Shown here in pieces: positions 20,091 through 54,724 of a stretch of 64,000 bases of DNA; positions within the stretch are counted from its first letter, which is position 1, and each line of letters begins with the position of its first letter. The notes under the pieces were generated by a model. It worked only from the letters and a program-made list of their open reading frames with translations, was not told the origin of the DNA and did not search any database. Source of the DNA: an uncultured Pelagibacteraceae bacterium. Its GTDB lineage: Bacteria > Pseudomonadota > Alphaproteobacteria > Pelagibacterales > Pelagibacteraceae. The translations under genes and the position numbers were made by a program. Location of the stretch: the NCBI GenBank assembly GCA_902573385.1, contig CACGJS010000001.1:35137-99136 (forward strand), in the 5' to 3' direction.

Positions 20091-22753
20091 TGAAAAAACT
20101 AATTTTAAACTTTAAATCAAAAGAGTCGAAAAAACTAAAAAATCCAAAAAATTTTCTTGGAGGAAAAGGTGTAAATCTTTCTCAAATGGGAAGAATGGGA
20201 CTACCTGTTCCACCTGGATTCACTATTTCAACTAACGTTTGTAAATTATTCTATCAAAATAATAAAAAACTAAATACTAAGATATTAAATGATATTAAAA
20301 ATCAATTAAAAATTATTGAAAAAGATTCTAATAAAAAATTTGGAGACTTAAAGAATCCTCTACTTGTATCTGTAAGGTCGGGGGCAAGAATTTCGATGCC
20401 TGGTATGATGGATACAATATTAAATTTAGGTTTAAATGATAAAACTGTTTTAGCCTTAGCCAAAAAAACTTCAAATATGAGGTTTGCAAAAGATAGCTAT
20501 AGAAGATTTATTCAAATGTATAGCAATGTCGTAATAGGTATAGAAAATTACAATTTTGAAGAATTAATTGAAAATTATAAGTTAACTAAAGGTGTTTTGC
20601 TAGATACTCAGTTGGATGAAAATGATTGGGATGGTTTAATTCATGACTTTAAAAAAATCATAAAAGAAAAAACAAAAAAAGATTTTCCACAAAATGTTTT
20701 TGATCAATTAAACGGAGCTATTAGTGCAGTGTTTTTATCATGGGAGAGTAATAGAGCGAAAGTTTATAGAAAATTAAATCAAATTCCATCAGATTGGGGT
20801 ACTGCAGTTAATGTTCAATCAATGGTTTTTGGTAATATGGGAAATGATTGTGCAACAGGAGTTGTCTTTACAAGAAATCCATCTGATGGAAAAAATGAAA
20901 TTTATGGAGAATATCTAATAAATGCTCAGGGTGAAGATGTAGTAGCTGGAACAAGAACACCTCAATACATTACTAAAAAAGCCAGAAAAAATGCAAAGGC
21001 AAAAGAAAAGTCTATGGAAGAGTCAATGCCAAAAGTATTTAAACAACTAGTTAAAATTTTAAAAGTACTAGAAAAATATTATAAAGATATGCAAGATGTC
21101 GAATTTACAGTCGAAAATAATAAATTATGGATGCTACAAACTAGATCAGGTAAAAGGACTTCTAAATCTGCAGTTAAAATAGCAGTAGATATGGTTAAAG
21201 AAAAACTTATTTCAAAAAAAGAAGCAATATTGAGAATTGACCCAAGTTCTTTGGATACATTGCTACATCCAACACTAGATGAAAAAAGTTCAATAAATAT
21301 TATAGCGAATGGTTTACCAGCCTCTCCAGGAGCTGCATGTGGAAAAGTTGTTTTTTCTTCAGATGAAGCTGAAAGATTAAATTCGATGATGCAAGATACT
21401 ATTTTAGTAAGAATTGAAACTTCACCAGAAGATATTCATGGAATGCATGCTGCAAAAGGAATTTTGACAGCAAGAGGCGGAATGACGAGTCATGCTGCAG
21501 TTGTAGCAAGAGGAATGGGAAGACCCTGTGTTTCAGGTTCGAGTGAAATTGATATTGATTACGAAAGAAGAAGATTTAAAACTTCATCTGTAGAAGTTAA
21601 AGAAGGTGATATAATTACCATTGATGGTTCATCTGGAAGAATTATTTTAGGAGAAGTAACAACAGTTAAGCCAGAAATTTCGGGAGATTTTTCAAAACTA
21701 ATGAATTGGGCCGATAGATATAGAAAATTAAAAGTTAGAACAAATTCAGAAACACCACTTGATACAAAAACTGCTAGAGACTTTGGTGCTGAAGGTATAG
21801 GTCTTTGTAGAACAGAACATATGTTTTTTGACCAAGAAAGAATTTTATCTGTTAGAGAGATGATTTTATCAAAAACAATTGAAGATAGAAATAAAGCATT
21901 AGACAAACTCTTGCCTCATCAAAGAAAAGATTTTACTGAAATATTTAAAATTATGTACGATCTACCTGTAACAGTAAGGTTACTAGACCCTCCGTTGCAT
22001 GAATTTCTTCCTAAGACTGAGAAGGAAATCAATGATATTGCAAAAGTAGTAGAGTTACCTTTAAAGGAAATTGAGTCAAGAATTAATGAATTACATGAAC
22101 AAAACCCTATGTTAGGACATAGAGGATGTAGATTAGGTATCTCATTTCCAGAAATTTACGAAATGCAATGTAGGGCAATTTTTGAAGCATTATCAGAGCT
22201 TAAGATTAAAAAAATAAAATCAGCTTTTCCTGAAATTATGATCCCATTGGTTTCAACCGAAGCAGAAATAAGAATTATGAAAGAATTAGTTGTAAGAATA
22301 GCAAATGAAGTTCAAAAGAAAAAAAATATTAAAATTGATTATACTGTAGGAACTATGATTGAGTTGCCAAGAGCCTCCTTAAAAGCAAAGGATATAGCGA
22401 AACATGCAGATTTTTTTAGTTTTGGAACTAATGATTTAACTCAAACGACATTTGGTTTAAGTAGAGACGATAGTGGAAAGTTTTTGAATGACTATATCGA
22501 AAATAAAATATTTTCTATCGATCCATTTATATCAATTGATGATGGCGTAGCTGATTTAATTGAAATTGCAACTGAAAGAGGAAGAAAACAAAATAAAAAA
22601 ATTAAACTTGGAATTTGTGGAGAACATGGTGGTGATCCCAAGAGCATTCGTTTTTGTGCGGAAACAGGGCTAGATTATGTTTCTTGTTCTCCTTATAGAG
22701 TTCCCGTAGCGAGATTAGCGGCTGCTCAAGCCGAATTATATAAAAAAAATTAA
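20090..22753 (+). CDS. ppdK: Pyruvate, phosphate dikinase
   Basis: It interconverts pyruvate, ATP and phosphate with phosphoenolpyruvate, AMP and pyrophosphate, and can serve gluconeogenesis. The N-terminal nucleotide-binding domain begins GGKGVNLSQMGRMGLPVPPGFTIS. The central phosphohistidine domain has GGMTSHAAVVARGMGRPCVSG near residues 460-480 with the catalytic His. The C-terminal PEP-binding barrel contains GAEGIGLCRTEHMFF and ends with GICGEHGGDPKSI, whose Cys is the catalytic acid. Length 887 is typical. The start is GTG, overlapping the glyS TAG; the same glyS-ppdK linkage occurs in other Alphaproteobacteria. Its stop shares TTAA with nadC. Confidence 0.97.
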   Translation: MKKLILNFKSKESKKLKNPKNFLGGKGVNLSQMGRMGLPVPPGFTISTNVCKLFYQNNKKLNTKILNDIKNQLKIIEKDSNKKFGDLKNPLLVSVRSGARISMPGMMDTILNLGLNDKTVLALAKKTSNMRFAKDSYRRFIQMYSNVVIGIENYNFEELIENYKLTKGVLLDTQLDENDWDGLIHDFKKIIKEKTKKDFPQNVFDQLNGAISAVFLSWESNRAKVYRKLNQIPSDWGTAVNVQSMVFGNMGNDCATGVVFTRNPSDGKNEIYGEYLINAQGEDVVAGTRTPQYITKKARKNAKAKEKSMEESMPKVFKQLVKILKVLEKYYKDMQDVEFTVENNKLWMLQTRSGKRTSKSAVKIAVDMVKEKLISKKEAILRIDPSSLDTLLHPTLDEKSSINIIANGLPASPGAACGKVVFSSDEAERLNSMMQDTILVRIETSPEDIHGMHAAKGILTARGGMTSHAAVVARGMGRPCVSGSSEIDIDYERRRFKTSSVEVKEGDIITIDGSSGRIILGEVTTVKPEISGDFSKLMNWADRYRKLKVRTNSETPLDTKTARDFGAEGIGLCRTEHMFFDQERILSVREMILSKTIEDRNKALDKLLPHQRKDFTEIFKIMYDLPVTVRLLDPPLHEFLPKTEKEINDIAKVVELPLKEIESRINELHEQNPMLGHRGCRLGISFPEIYEMQCRAIFEALSELKIKKIKSAFPEIMIPLVSTEAEIRIMKELVVRIANEVQKKKNIKIDYTVGTMIELPRASLKAKDIAKHADFFSFGTNDLTQTTFGLSRDDSGKFLNDYIENKIFSIDPFISIDDGVADLIEIATERGRKQNKKIKLGICGEHGGDPKSIRFCAETGLDYVSCSPYRVPVARLAAAQAELYKKN

Positions 22754-23583
22754 ATTTCTAATTTAAAATCAATAGCAGGCACACTATGAGTTATGCTTCC
22801 GATTGAAATTCTATCAATACCAGTTGCTGAAATTTTTTTTACTGATTTTAAATTAATATTTCCTGAGGCCTCAGTTTCATAATACTTTTTGGCTATTTTA
22901 ACTCCAACCTTAAGTTTCTTAATGTTCATATTATCAAATAAAACTGTATTGAATTTGAGACCAATTATTTTTTTTAATTGATTTAGATTATCTACTTCAA
23001 CTGTAATTTTTCTTTTTTTTTTATTTTTAATAGCCAAATCAACTAAAGCTTTGATGTTAGAGCTTGCTATATGATTATCTTTAATTAAAAATTCGTCACT
23101 CAAGTTAAATCTATGGTTAACTCCACCACCTAGTTTTACAGCATACTTTTGTATTACTCTTAAAGTTGGAATTGTTTTCCTTGTACAACAAATTTTACAA
23201 TTTTTATTAACCAGCTTAACAAAATTATTTGTTTTAGTGGCAATGCCTGAGATATGACTTATAAAATTAAGAGCAACTCTTTCTCCAATTAATATATTTT
23301 CAGCTTTCCCTTTAATAATTGCTATTAAGGTATTTTTTTTTACAAAAGAACCTTCTTTTTTTTTAATTATAAATTTTATCTTTTTGTCAATTAGTTTGAA
23401 TGTTTGTTTTGCGAATTTCAAACCACCAATCATAGCTTCTTGATTAGAAATTAATTTAGCTTTTATAATTTTAGTATTTTTAATTAAGTTTGAAGTAATA
23501 TCGCCAGAAGGGTAAAGATCTTCGTTTAAAGCAAGTTTAACTGTATTATTAATATAATAATTGCTTAATTTAATTTGAGACAC
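22750..23583 (-). CDS. nadC: Nicotinate-nucleotide pyrophosphorylase (carboxylating)
   Basis: It converts quinolinate and PRPP to nicotinate mononucleotide in de novo NAD synthesis. Recognisable elements are NEDLYPSGDITSNL near residues 16-29, ALNFISHISGIATKTN near 104-119, TRKTIPTLRVIQKYAVKLGGGVNHRFNLSDEFLIKDNH (catalytic and substrate-binding block, about 134-171), and the C-terminal SATGIDRISIGSITHS. Length 277 is normal. The start is GTG (complement of 23581-23583), five bases after the nadA stop, so nadA-nadC form an operon. nadB is not in the window. Convergent with ppdK through a shared TTAA. Confidence 0.95.
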   Translation of the reverse strand: MSQIKLSNYYINNTVKLALNEDLYPSGDITSNLIKNTKIIKAKLISNQEAMIGGLKFAKQTFKLIDKKIKFIIKKKEGSFVKKNTLIAIIKGKAENILIGERVALNFISHISGIATKTNNFVKLVNKNCKICCTRKTIPTLRVIQKYAVKLGGGVNHRFNLSDEFLIKDNHIASSNIKALVDLAIKNKKKRKITVEVDNLNQLKKIIGLKFNTVLFDNMNIKKLKVGVKIAKKYYETEASGNINLKSVKKISATGIDRISIGSITHSVPAIDFKLEI

Positions 23584-23588
23584 TTTTA

Positions 23589-24578
23589 TTACCTGCCAAT
23601 TGCAGCCATTCTCTCAACAGGTATTCTTGCTTTTCTTATCATTTCTTCATCTATTATTATTTCACCAGTTTCACTCTCTAAACAATCTAGAATTTTTGGG
23701 AGTGTAATTTTTTTCATATGAGGACAAAGATTACAAGGTCTTATAAATTCTACATTTGGATTTTCTACTTGAATATTATCACTCATCGAACACTCTGTAA
23801 CCATCATTACTTTTTTAGGTTGTTTATCTTCAACATATTTAATCATTCCACTAGTTGATCCAGCAAAATCACTAGCTTTAATAACATCAGGAGGACACTC
23901 AGGGTGTGCAATTATTTTAATTCCAGGATTTTTTTCTCTAATACTGAATATTTCTTTTTCATTAAACTTTTCATGGACCATACAAATTCCTTTCCATGGA
24001 ATAATTTCAACATCTGTTTGTGAAGCTACGTATTTTGCTAAATAATCATCTGGTAAAAATATAACTTTTTTTACTCCTAGAGAGTTTACAATTTTTACAG
24101 CATTAGCAGATGTACAACATACATCAGTTTCAGCTTTTACTTCAGCAGAAGTATTAACATAAGATACAACAGGTACACCTGGATGTTTTTTTTTTAATAG
24201 TCTGACATCTTTACCTGTTATAGATGACGACAACGAACAACCAGCATTCATATCCGGTAATAAAACTTTTTTTTTAGGACTCATTAACTTAGAAGTTTCT
24301 GCCATAAAATGAACTCCTGCCATTACAATTATATCAGCTTTTGTTTTAGAAGCTTCTATTGCCAGAGCCAAAGAATCAGCAGCAACATCTGCTACTCCAT
24401 GATAAATCTCTGGAGTTTGGTAGTTATGAGCAAGTATTATTGCGTTTTTTTCTTTTTTTAATTGATTAATTTTATGAATGTAAGGAGCGTGAACAGACCA
24501 CTCTATTTCTGGTATAATTTTAGAAATTTTTTTATAAATAGGATCAGTTGCTTTTTTAACTTCTTGTGAAAATTCCAT
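23589..24578 (-). CDS. nadA: Quinolinate synthase
   Basis: NadA condenses iminoaspartate with dihydroxyacetone phosphate to quinolinate and holds a [4Fe-4S] cluster on three cysteines. AIILAHNYQTPEIYHGVADVAADSLALA and MAGVHFMAETSKLM give the family. Candidate cluster ligands are Cys in MNAGCSLSS, in the central TECSMSD/CMVHEKF region, and in PCNLCPHMKK near the C-terminus. I chose the ATG at the complement of 24576-24578 over a TTG five codons upstream; neither has a strong ribosome-binding site. The gene is followed by nadC and lies 72 bases from the 3' end of the tmRNA gene, both on the minus strand. Confidence 0.95.
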   Translation of the reverse strand: MEFSQEVKKATDPIYKKISKIIPEIEWSVHAPYIHKINQLKKEKNAIILAHNYQTPEIYHGVADVAADSLALAIEASKTKADIIVMAGVHFMAETSKLMSPKKKVLLPDMNAGCSLSSSITGKDVRLLKKKHPGVPVVSYVNTSAEVKAETDVCCTSANAVKIVNSLGVKKVIFLPDDYLAKYVASQTDVEIIPWKGICMVHEKFNEKEIFSIREKNPGIKIIAHPECPPDVIKASDFAGSTSGMIKYVEDKQPKKVMMVTECSMSDNIQVENPNVEFIRPCNLCPHMKKITLPKILDCLESETGEIIIDEEMIRKARIPVERMAAIGR

Positions 24579-24650
24579 ATCTAAACTTATCAATCAGCAA
24601 GCATCATGTCATTTTATTATTGGTCGCATAAATATTGAAAAATCCATATT

Positions 24651-24916
24651 TTAAGGGGCGTTCTGTTACCCGGTGCCCCAGACCGTGCTTTTATGATTAA
24701 CCTAGGTTAATTATGCAGCAAGTGCGTAACTTTCGTTAGCATTTAAAGTTTAGCCCGTTGCGGTGGAACAATCCCGAACGAAAGAATAGCCTTTAGTCAC
24801 CCGTCGATCCTATTTCACCCCCATAAGTTGCAAATGGTGGAGGTGGTGGGTACTGCCCCCACGTCCGTAATGGTTATTACGAAATTCGTTTATCGTCGTA
24901 GTTGGCAAGCCAACGC
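24651..24916 (-). ncRNA. ssrA: Transfer-messenger RNA, circularly permuted two-piece form
   Basis: tmRNA rescues stalled ribosomes. Read on the minus strand, the gene begins with the acceptor piece (about 24916 down to 24835), which ends in the strand CACCTCC plus ACCA. A 12-base spacer (24834-24823) follows, then the coding piece starting GGGGGTG at 24822. GGGGGTG pairs with CACCTCC over seven positions with one G-T pair, rebuilding the tRNA-like acceptor stem across the spacer. The coding piece has GGATCGACGG and the tag reading frame at 24740-24711, encoding ANESYALAA then TAA. A perfect TTAACCTAGGTTAA palindrome (24697-24710) and a GGGGC/GCCCC helix (24655-24679) follow. Both outer ends are approximate. 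Permutation is known in Alphaproteobacteria. Confidence 0.93.
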
Positions 24917-24920
24917 TATT

Positions 24921-24948
24921 AATATAAAAGCATTTACAAGAGATTCAA
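24921..24948 (-). promoter_or_regulatory. Candidate sigma-70 promoter for ssrA
   Basis: On the minus strand TTGAAT (24943-24948) and TATATT (24921-24926) are 16 bases apart, placing the transcript start about at 24914-24916, where the acceptor-piece hairpin GTTGG-CTTG-CCAAC begins. The element lies in the 40 bases between ssrA and the divergent thyX. Confidence 0.5.
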
Positions 24949-24956
24949 TAAAAATC

Positions 24957-25907
24957 ATGAAATTAACTAAAGAACAATCACAAGAAATTAAAGATCAGCA
25001 ATCTCAAGAGAATCAAACAAAAAGAGTTACAGTTTTAGGGCTTGAAAAAATTCTTTATGAGGCAATACCAGCACTAGATCATGGTTTTGTTAGAGTAGTA
25101 GACTATATGGGAGATGACACTTCAATTGTTCAAGCTGCTAGGGTTTCTTATGGAAAGGGAACTAAACAAGTTTCTACAGATAGCGGATTGATAAAGTATC
25201 TAATGAGACATTGGCATAGCACTCCTTTTGAAATGTGTGAAATAAAATATCATGTCAAACTTCCAATATTTATTGCACGTCAATGGATCAGACATAGAAC
25301 AGCAAATGTTAATGAATATTCCGCTAGATATTCTATTTTGGATAAAGAATTTTATTTACCGTCAGTAGAAAATTTAGCAGCTCAATCATCAAGCAATAGA
25401 CAGGGCAGAGGTGACGTTATTGAAGGGGAGCAAGCTAAAGAAGTTTTAGAACTTTTAAAAAATGACGCAGAAAAAACTTATAATAATTATGAAATGATGC
25501 TTAATCAAAGATTTGATGGGTCAACAATTGATGAAAATAAAAAAGGTTTAGCAAGAGAGCTAGCAAGAATGAATTTAACTTTAAATACTTATACTCAATG
25601 GTACTGGAAAACCGATTTATTAAATCTAATGAATTTTTTAAGATTAAGAGCAGACAGTCATGCTCAGTATGAAATAAGAGTATATGCTGATATAATGTTA
25701 GATACTTTAAAGAAATGGGTTCCAATAACTTTTGATGCATTTATGGATTATAGAGTTGGTGGAACCGAAGTATCAGCTAAAGGTAAATTAATAATTCAAA
25801 AATTAATTAAAGGTGTAGAGGTTAATCTTGAAAATTCTGGACTGTCAAAAAGAGAGTGGAATGAATTAATGGTAGCTTTTAATCTTAATGAAAGATTACT
25901 TAAATAA
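24957..25907 (+). CDS. thyX: Flavin-dependent thymidylate synthase
   Basis: ThyX methylates dUMP to dTMP using FAD, NADPH and methylene-tetrahydrofolate, replacing ThyA. The family motif RHRX7S is present as [11 protein letters not shown] followed by ARY. The C-terminal part [18 protein letters not shown] supplies the substrate-binding Arg and Gln residues. The open frame extends back to 24828, but that extension lies antisense to the tmRNA acceptor piece and its spacer and encodes no ThyX-like sequence. I therefore start at the ATG at 24957 (MKLTKEQSQ), giving 316 residues, near the family length. Its end overlaps the next gene by 20 bases. Confidence 0.94.
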
Positions 25908-53985: not shown

Positions 53986-54050
53986 AAATCCTTTATATTT
54001 GAAAAAAAAGATTAATGCATTTTATTTAAAATAGTGTTATTCTGTAAATA

Positions 54051-54096
54051 GATAGTCCTATTAGCCATCTTTAGCTCCCGGTTTTTTAGGACTATC
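54051..54096. other. Hairpin between the divergent DUF2805 and LysE-type genes
   Basis: GATAGTCCTA (54051-54060) and TAGGACTATC (54087-54096) form a perfect 10-bp inverted repeat around a 26-base loop containing TTAGCCATCT followed by TTAGCTCCC. It lies 14 bases before the LysE-type ATG at 54110 and 66 bases from the DUF2805 start. No T run follows on either strand, so it is not an ordinary terminator. It could be a structured leader of the exporter mRNA or an operator. I recognise no known riboswitch. Confidence 0.5.
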
Positions 54097-54109
54097 CTAA
54101 TTATCTCAA

Positions 54110-54724
54110 ATGTTTCCCTTAAATTACTTTCTTTTTTTACAGATAATTTTGTTTTTATTTATTACTCCAGGAACACCCAGAATTGTAATTATTTCATATT
54201 CAATGAATTACGGAGTTCAAAAATGTATTTGGACAGCATTAGGAGATGTGACAGCAAATATACTACAAGCATTTTTAGTTATTTTTGTTCTTGGATCTTT
54301 TTTTAAGGATAATCCAAATTTTTTAAGTATAATTAAATGGATAGGAATACTTTATTTATTTTATTTGGCTTATGATGTTTATAACTCTAGACCAAAGAAT
54401 ATAAATTCAAGAAATATCTCTTCAAAAAGTTTTTTTTCTTTTTTCAGAGATGGTTTTTTAGTTGCTGGAACAAGTCCAAAAGCATGGATGTTCTTTCCTT
54501 TAATATTTCCACAGTTTATAGATTTTAACTCAAATTATACTGTTCAGTTTTTTATTTTAATTACTACATATGTAGTTTTAGATTTTTTATCTTTAATTAC
54601 CTATGCTGTGCTTGCTAGAAAATTAATTGTTTGGATAAAGACCAACCCTAAAATAATTAATACAATTTCTGCTAGTGTCTTATTAATAATAGCAATAATA
54701 ATTGTATTTATTCAAAAATATTAA
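54110..54724 (+). CDS. LysE/RhtB-family amino acid exporter
   Basis: A 204-residue membrane protein with about six hydrophobic segments. The conserved N-terminal segment FITPGTPRIVIISYSMNYGVQKCIWTALGDVTANILQ (about 18-54) is the LysE/RhtB signature, with TPGT replacing the more common TPGP. DGFLVAGTSPKAWMFFPLIFPQF near 121-143 is the second conserved region. Members export lysine, arginine, homoserine, threonine or related compounds; the substrate is not readable here. It lies immediately downstream of the 10-bp hairpin and without a visible ribosome-binding site. Confidence 0.85.
   Translation: MFPLNYFLFLQIILFLFITPGTPRIVIISYSMNYGVQKCIWTALGDVTANILQAFLVIFVLGSFFKDNPNFLSIIKWIGILYLFYLAYDVYNSRPKNINSRNISSKSFFSFFRDGFLVAGTSPKAWMFFPLIFPQFIDFNSNYTVQFFILITTYVVLDFLSLITYAVLARKLIVWIKTNPKIINTISASVLLIIAIIIVFIQKY

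Follow-up and report, generated by a model that had tools for sequence, protein, structure and literature searches.

The window, i.e., the whole stretch of 64,000 nucleotides of an uncultured Pelagibacteraceae (SAR11) bacterium that was analysed here, almost certainly carries the ssrA (tmRNA) gene in the normal circularly permuted form of alphaproteobacteria, for which a two-piece, SmpB-partnered function in ribosome rescue is proposed. The gene itself is of an already known kind and textbook for SAR11, and it only confirms that streamlined genomes retain ribosome rescue. Interest beyond the known gene lies in the conserved spacer between its two pieces and in cassette arrays found in relatives. 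The spacer, generally held to be waste, appears to be under selection in a very abundant bacterial group and would thus provide a sequence signal for the processing of permuted tmRNA, and through the arrays, streamlined ocean bacteria may acquire restriction enzymes, secreted proteins, and further niche genes.

The Rfam covariance model alpha_tmRNA was matched on the minus strand over its full length (24952-24652, model positions 1-355) with 217.9 bits at an E-value of 9.5e-62, passing the curated cut-off (gathering score 50), and tmRNA_permuted was matched at 24897-24711 of the same strand with 129.1 bits. A permuted tmRNA with the tag ANESYALAA* was likewise called by ARAGORN. As read from the sequence, the gene consists of an acceptor piece, 12 intervening nucleotides, and a coding piece in this order, and it has a tRNA-like fold, GCU as resume codon, the tag, and, upstream, a conserved promoter. 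The acceptor piece (24835..24917, minus strand), which comes first in the transcript, was delimited by the alpha_tmRNA alignment, ARAGORN, and stem covariation, its exact 5′ end being inferred from the promoter. It contains a 5′ hairpin (GTTGG..CCAAC, 24914-24901), the T-arm GUGGG-GGCAGUA-CCCAC (24862-24846; ARAGORN tRNA domain and T-stem covariation), the 3′ strand of the acceptor stem (CACCUCC, 24845-24839), and an encoded ACCA (24838-24835), with which the piece ends as in the permuted type. The spacer UUUGCAACUUAU (24823..24834, minus strand) is exactly 12 nt long based on the ARAGORN parse, the survey of SAR11 genomes, and conservation, and its removal is expected. The coding, mRNA-like piece (24652..24822, minus strand; alpha_tmRNA alignment to 24652 and the drop in conservation there) opens with the 5′ strand of the acceptor stem (GGGGGUG, 24816..24822) directly behind a predicted RNase P cut (24823/24822), and this strand pairs across the spacer with 24839-24845 in 7/7 positions. 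The tag frame (24711..24740, minus strand; ARAGORN) reads GCU AAC GAA AGU UAC GCA CUU GCU GCA UAA, i.e., an alanine resume codon, a short tag with a hydrophobic, ALAA-like end (ANESYALAA), and the stop codon UAA.

In both stems of the tRNA-like domain, SAR11 and other alphaproteobacteria differ by compensating changes, the acceptor stem occurring as GGGGGUG/CACCUCC, GGGGGCG/CGCCUCC, GGGGACG/CGUCUCC, and GGGGUCG/CGACUCC, and the T-stem as GUGGG/CCCAC, CCGGG/CCCGG, and CAGGG/CCCUG. Given these covarying stems and the E-value, the structure is not a product of chance. The folding energy of the precursor was no better than that of shuffled sequences (z −0.35), which is expected for a pseudoknotted RNA but lends the structure no support. 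Upstream of the gene, a sigma-70-type promoter was predicted on the minus strand (−35 TTGAAT 24948-24943, 16-nt gap, −10 TATATT 24926-24921) by a consensus scan that is by itself not above chance; the pattern TTGAAT-N16-TATAWT recurs in 120/143 distinct Pelagibacteraceae sequences and has a gap of exactly 16 nt in each of them. At the other end, conservation drops sharply past 24652 (mean entropy 0.17 at 24680-24652 versus 1.59 at 24651-24630). The permuted tmRNA, its 12-nt spacer, its seven-pair acceptor stem, and its tag had all been given correctly in the preliminary description, which left the strand (minus) unstated and placed the ends at 24651 and 24916, at most about 2 nt away from the 3′ end of the covariance model match and from the start derived from the promoter. 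Its assignment to the two-piece permuted type of alphaproteobacteria, made to depend on the outcome of a covariance search, is borne out by the alpha_tmRNA fit in this SAR11 genome.

The divergent neighbour is thyX (24957..25907, plus strand) with an ATG at 24957. A longer thyX open reading frame (24828-25907, TTG start) overlaps the tmRNA gene, and its start at 24828 very probably repeats the thyX mis-start reported in P. ubique (PMC2704228). Between the start of the tmRNA gene and the thyX ATG (24900-24960), about 30-40 bp remain, so that either the divergent promoters would overlap or the thyX transcript would begin within the tmRNA gene. Downstream of the tmRNA gene follow a nadA-like reading frame (quinolinate synthase, named from reading its translation; 23589..24593, minus strand) and, after it, a nadC-like one (22750-23583). 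Elsewhere in the window, the rhtB sRNA motif (Rfam RF01814) was matched at 54033-54114 on the plus strand with 74.4 bits.

Across the same order, a tmRNA match above the cut-off was obtained for 220/247 genomes. Tags and spacers were compared in 101 loci rows parsed by ARAGORN, which come from 91 distinct SAR11 genomes, and SAR11 acceptor ends were located by a pairing-based search and ARAGORN. All parsed SAR11 tags (91 genomes) have nine residues and end in A-[LIV]-A-A. ANESYALAA is the commonest (36/101 rows), next to ANDELALAA, ANNKFALAA, ANDKFALAA, ANESYAIAA, and more, and the tag table of ARAGORN already holds ANESYALAA (alphaproteobacterial) and ANESYAIAA (Pelagibacter sp. IMCC9063). SAR11 spacers measure 5-17 nt, with 12 nt prevailing in the family of the window and 7 nt in the sister family. 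As every readable SAR11 gene combines a nine-residue tag with a spacer of 5-17 nt, nothing in these lengths is peculiar to the window; the lengths given earlier stand, but the attribute “very short” says little within SAR11. The tag had also been described as shorter than the 10-14 residues common elsewhere, which is true of its nine residues, yet these are only one below the most frequent length of 10, and tags of 2 residues exist as the extreme (2025 tmRNA database paper, PMC11915505). No tmRNA match was found in 7 of the 149 most complete genomes of the order. Real loss of the gene in such genomes was considered less likely: smpB was kept in all seven tmRNA-negative genomes examined and the assemblies are fragmented, so assembly gaps are the likelier cause.

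Whether such short spacers and tags reflect minimisation, as the preliminary description had proposed, was assessed in 47 alphaproteobacteria outside SAR11, in which spacers measure 5-67 nt (median 26) and tags 9-32 residues (median 12). Larger genomes tend to have longer spacers (Spearman 0.49, p 5e-4, without correction for kinship), whereas tag length shows no such trend (rho −0.10, p 0.50); tags of 20-32 residues occur in several genomes of 1-2 Mb, and a 5-nt spacer occurs in one genome of 2.8 Mb. Hence, genome streamlining is partly supported as a reading of the lengths, for the spacer and not for the tag. That spacer and tag were merely shrunk by streamlining and have no sequence-specific role is nevertheless unlikely in view of the spacer sequence itself. 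Among 143 distinct Pelagibacteraceae sequences the spacer has the consensus UUUACAACUUAU, in which positions −2 to −8 are nearly invariant (entropies 0.17-0.46 bits) and position −1 is free (1.23). The mean pairwise identity of the 12-nt spacers (0.839, n=105) resembles that of the tag frame (0.846), in contrast to that of 12 nt inside the promoter gap (0.499), and DNA just beyond the gene is at an entropy of 1.59. Shared ancestry alone is insufficient to account for this, as unconstrained neighbouring positions have diverged, and such strong conservation within the family of the window argues for a functional motif instead of mere shortening. Spacers of the sister family differ and measure 5-9 nt, which makes the motif specific to one family. 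Based on sequence comparison, the motif CAACUUA (positions −8 to −2 relative to the RNase P site) most likely serves processing, for instance as an RNase P leader.

Slightly less probable still is that the spacer is conserved for a signal on the other strand, i.e., a promoter element or an N-terminal extension of thyX, and not for tmRNA processing. The divergent orientation of thyX and the open frame that runs from inside the spacer (24828) into it would fit such a signal. The extension, however, corresponds to the known mis-annotation in P. ubique (PMC2704228), the start at 24957 fits thyX, and a candidate thyX promoter pair recognised by eye lies closer to the gene on the plus strand (TTGGCA 24902-24907 and TATAAA 24923-24928). 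A signal for tmRNA processing remains the preferred reading of the spacer.

The course of this processing in SAR11 (cleavage, trimming, and assembly of the two pieces) is inferred from other alphaproteobacteria. A single transcript would fold with the spacer as a loop that closes the acceptor stem; RNase P would cut before G24822 and free the coding piece, and a 3′ exonuclease would remove the 12 nt still attached to the acceptor piece, back to the encoded CCA. Both pieces would remain paired, be charged with alanine, and, together with SmpB, rescue stalled ribosomes, whereby ANESYALAA would be added as a degradation tag for ClpXP. As one endonuclease cut is enough in this scheme, the earlier statement that processing must cut on both sides of the spacer need not hold. 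In the window genome, smpB was identified at G000:C36:3135-3557 (175.5 bits, cut-off 119.1). Both clpX (above cut-off) and RNase P RNA were found in 11/11 complete SAR11 genomes; in the 61%-complete assembly of the window genome, neither RNase P RNA nor full-length ClpX was found. RNase PH was not found in 7/7 complete genomes of the genus of the window (G003, G005, G011, G013, G015, G020, G026), where weak matches fell within an open reading frame of ~700 aa read as PNPase, and was found in the four complete genomes of sister genera (G001, G007, G009, G158). RNase D-like reading frames in the genus of the window were only short ones of about 200-230 residues, and other enzymes may be responsible for 3′ trimming of RNA there.

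The spacer is short and conserved like mature RNA, which is unusual for discarded sequence and would suit its retention in a one-piece RNA whose acceptor end is a closed loop, either inactive as alanine acceptor or working differently. We consider such retention very improbable. The perfect acceptor stem and the encoded ACCA, with compensating changes across alphaproteobacteria that have spacers of up to 67 nt, would serve no purpose without a free CCA end; in addition, smpB was present in 19/19 genomes searched (the window genome and 18 relatives), and the base at −1 varies as at the flank of a cleavage site. A pseudogene or degraded copy, suggested by tmRNA fragments in several relatives, can be practically dismissed for the window gene in view of its match to the full model, its intact stems and open tag, its conserved promoter, and its single copy in the assembly (847,581 bases, 61%-complete).

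The weak additional tmRNA matches in relatives turned out to be copies of the final bases of the gene; an interpretation as tRNAs was rejected, as ARAGORN found none. In the window genome, the corresponding 23-mer near the 3′ end of the tmRNA gene (GGCACCGGGTAACAGAACGCCCC, 24655..24677, minus strand) exists as a single, variant copy, and the arrays lie outside the window. Its counterpart in relatives, GGCACCTGGCAACAGAACGCCCC, forms direct repeats that delimit cassette arrays, both at the tmRNA gene and at other sites (SAR11 loci L178, L179, L180, L181, L184, L268, L281, and L307). In a scan of 247 genomes, the 21-mer GGCACCNGGNAACAGAACGCC often occurred 2-6 times per Pelagibacteraceae genome, and its reversed control pattern gave no match. 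Within the fetched loci, allowing up to 4 mismatches, 109 distinct repeat copies outside the tmRNA were counted in 70 loci; copies were oriented in the same direction in 40/40 multi-copy loci, at a median spacing of 732 nt. Between the repeats lie 66 distinct small cassettes with 115 open reading frames of at least 60 aa, 93 of which run opposite to the repeat. The Pfam matches listed for 101 cassette reading frames include restriction enzymes (DpnI, Mrr, MrcB-like, HNH), endonuclease/exonuclease, DUF2784, DUF805, and further families; the 25 commonest of the 28 and 37 Pfam/PHROG families listed for them contain no integrase. In two genomes (G157 with locus L169 and G232 with locus L170), only copies of the tmRNA 3′ end and no complete gene were found, probably due to assembly gaps at the array.

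Homologous cassettes were found at differing array positions and chromosomal sites in 25 pairs, for example, a pair of 686 and 686 nt with 97% identity that is the second cassette in one genome and the first in another. A 359-nt cassette is common to a tmRNA array (L178) and an array between prx and rnhA (L184) at 94%. The latter has eight repeat copies; in its closest relatives (prx 91-93% identical) the array is absent, prx and rnhA adjoin, and no repeat copy was found. One conserved Xer-like recombinase of ~325 aa was detected per SAR11 genome searched, few having another, regardless of whether arrays were present. A dif site as cassette core was rejected, no likeness to dif being visible by eye. 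The repeat-bounded arrays look integron-like or like an additive genomic island, the latter having been described in Methylopumilus, where islands are marked by repeats of the last 20 bp of a tRNA gene (PMC10872708). No earlier report of cassette arrays on SAR11 tmRNA tails was found in the limited set of journals searched. On balance, we lean slightly towards the tmRNA 3′ end (24655-24677) having served as the original attachment site of a cassette system of Pelagibacteraceae that resembles integrons but lacks an integrase. In this system, copies of the 23-mer would bound tandem cassettes at the tmRNA gene and other loci and cassettes would be gained and shuffled by an outside recombinase. 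The copy in the window would then be unoccupied, with a variant core.

Among known systems, a two-piece tmRNA was reportedly described for Caulobacter by Keiler et al. in 2000, a study cited in PMC2704228. The window gene has in common with Rfam RF01849 (alpha_tmRNA) and RF04321 (tmRNA_permuted) all model positions, the order of the pieces, and the tail CACC.GG.AACAGAA, and differs from the 47 alphaproteobacteria outside SAR11 in its spacer (12 nt versus a median of 26) and tag (9 residues versus a median of 12). Closest is the permuted tmRNA gene beside thyX of “Candidatus Pelagibacter ubique” HTCC1062, described in 2009 (Meyer et al., PMC2704228), which likewise adjoins thyX and presents the same problem of the thyX mis-start, whereas its downstream neighbour is other than that in the window. 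The same study gives 75-125 bp between the pieces as the general case, compared to 12 in the window. Two-piece tmRNA genes are also carried by pelagimyophages and the OM43 phage Melnitz (PMC9004378). A phage origin of the window copy was considered and found unsupported, with no match to phage records. Eight IMG/VR phage contigs (L187-L194) carry their own permuted tmRNA with a SAR11-type tail, plus ribonucleotide reductase genes. They share with the window gene the permuted type, the 3′-end 23-mer, and, in 7/8, a tag of nine residues (ADENLALAA; AKTINADENLALAA in L191, both called by ARAGORN), but are phage-borne, start the tag with ADEN instead of ANES, and have no thyX as neighbour.
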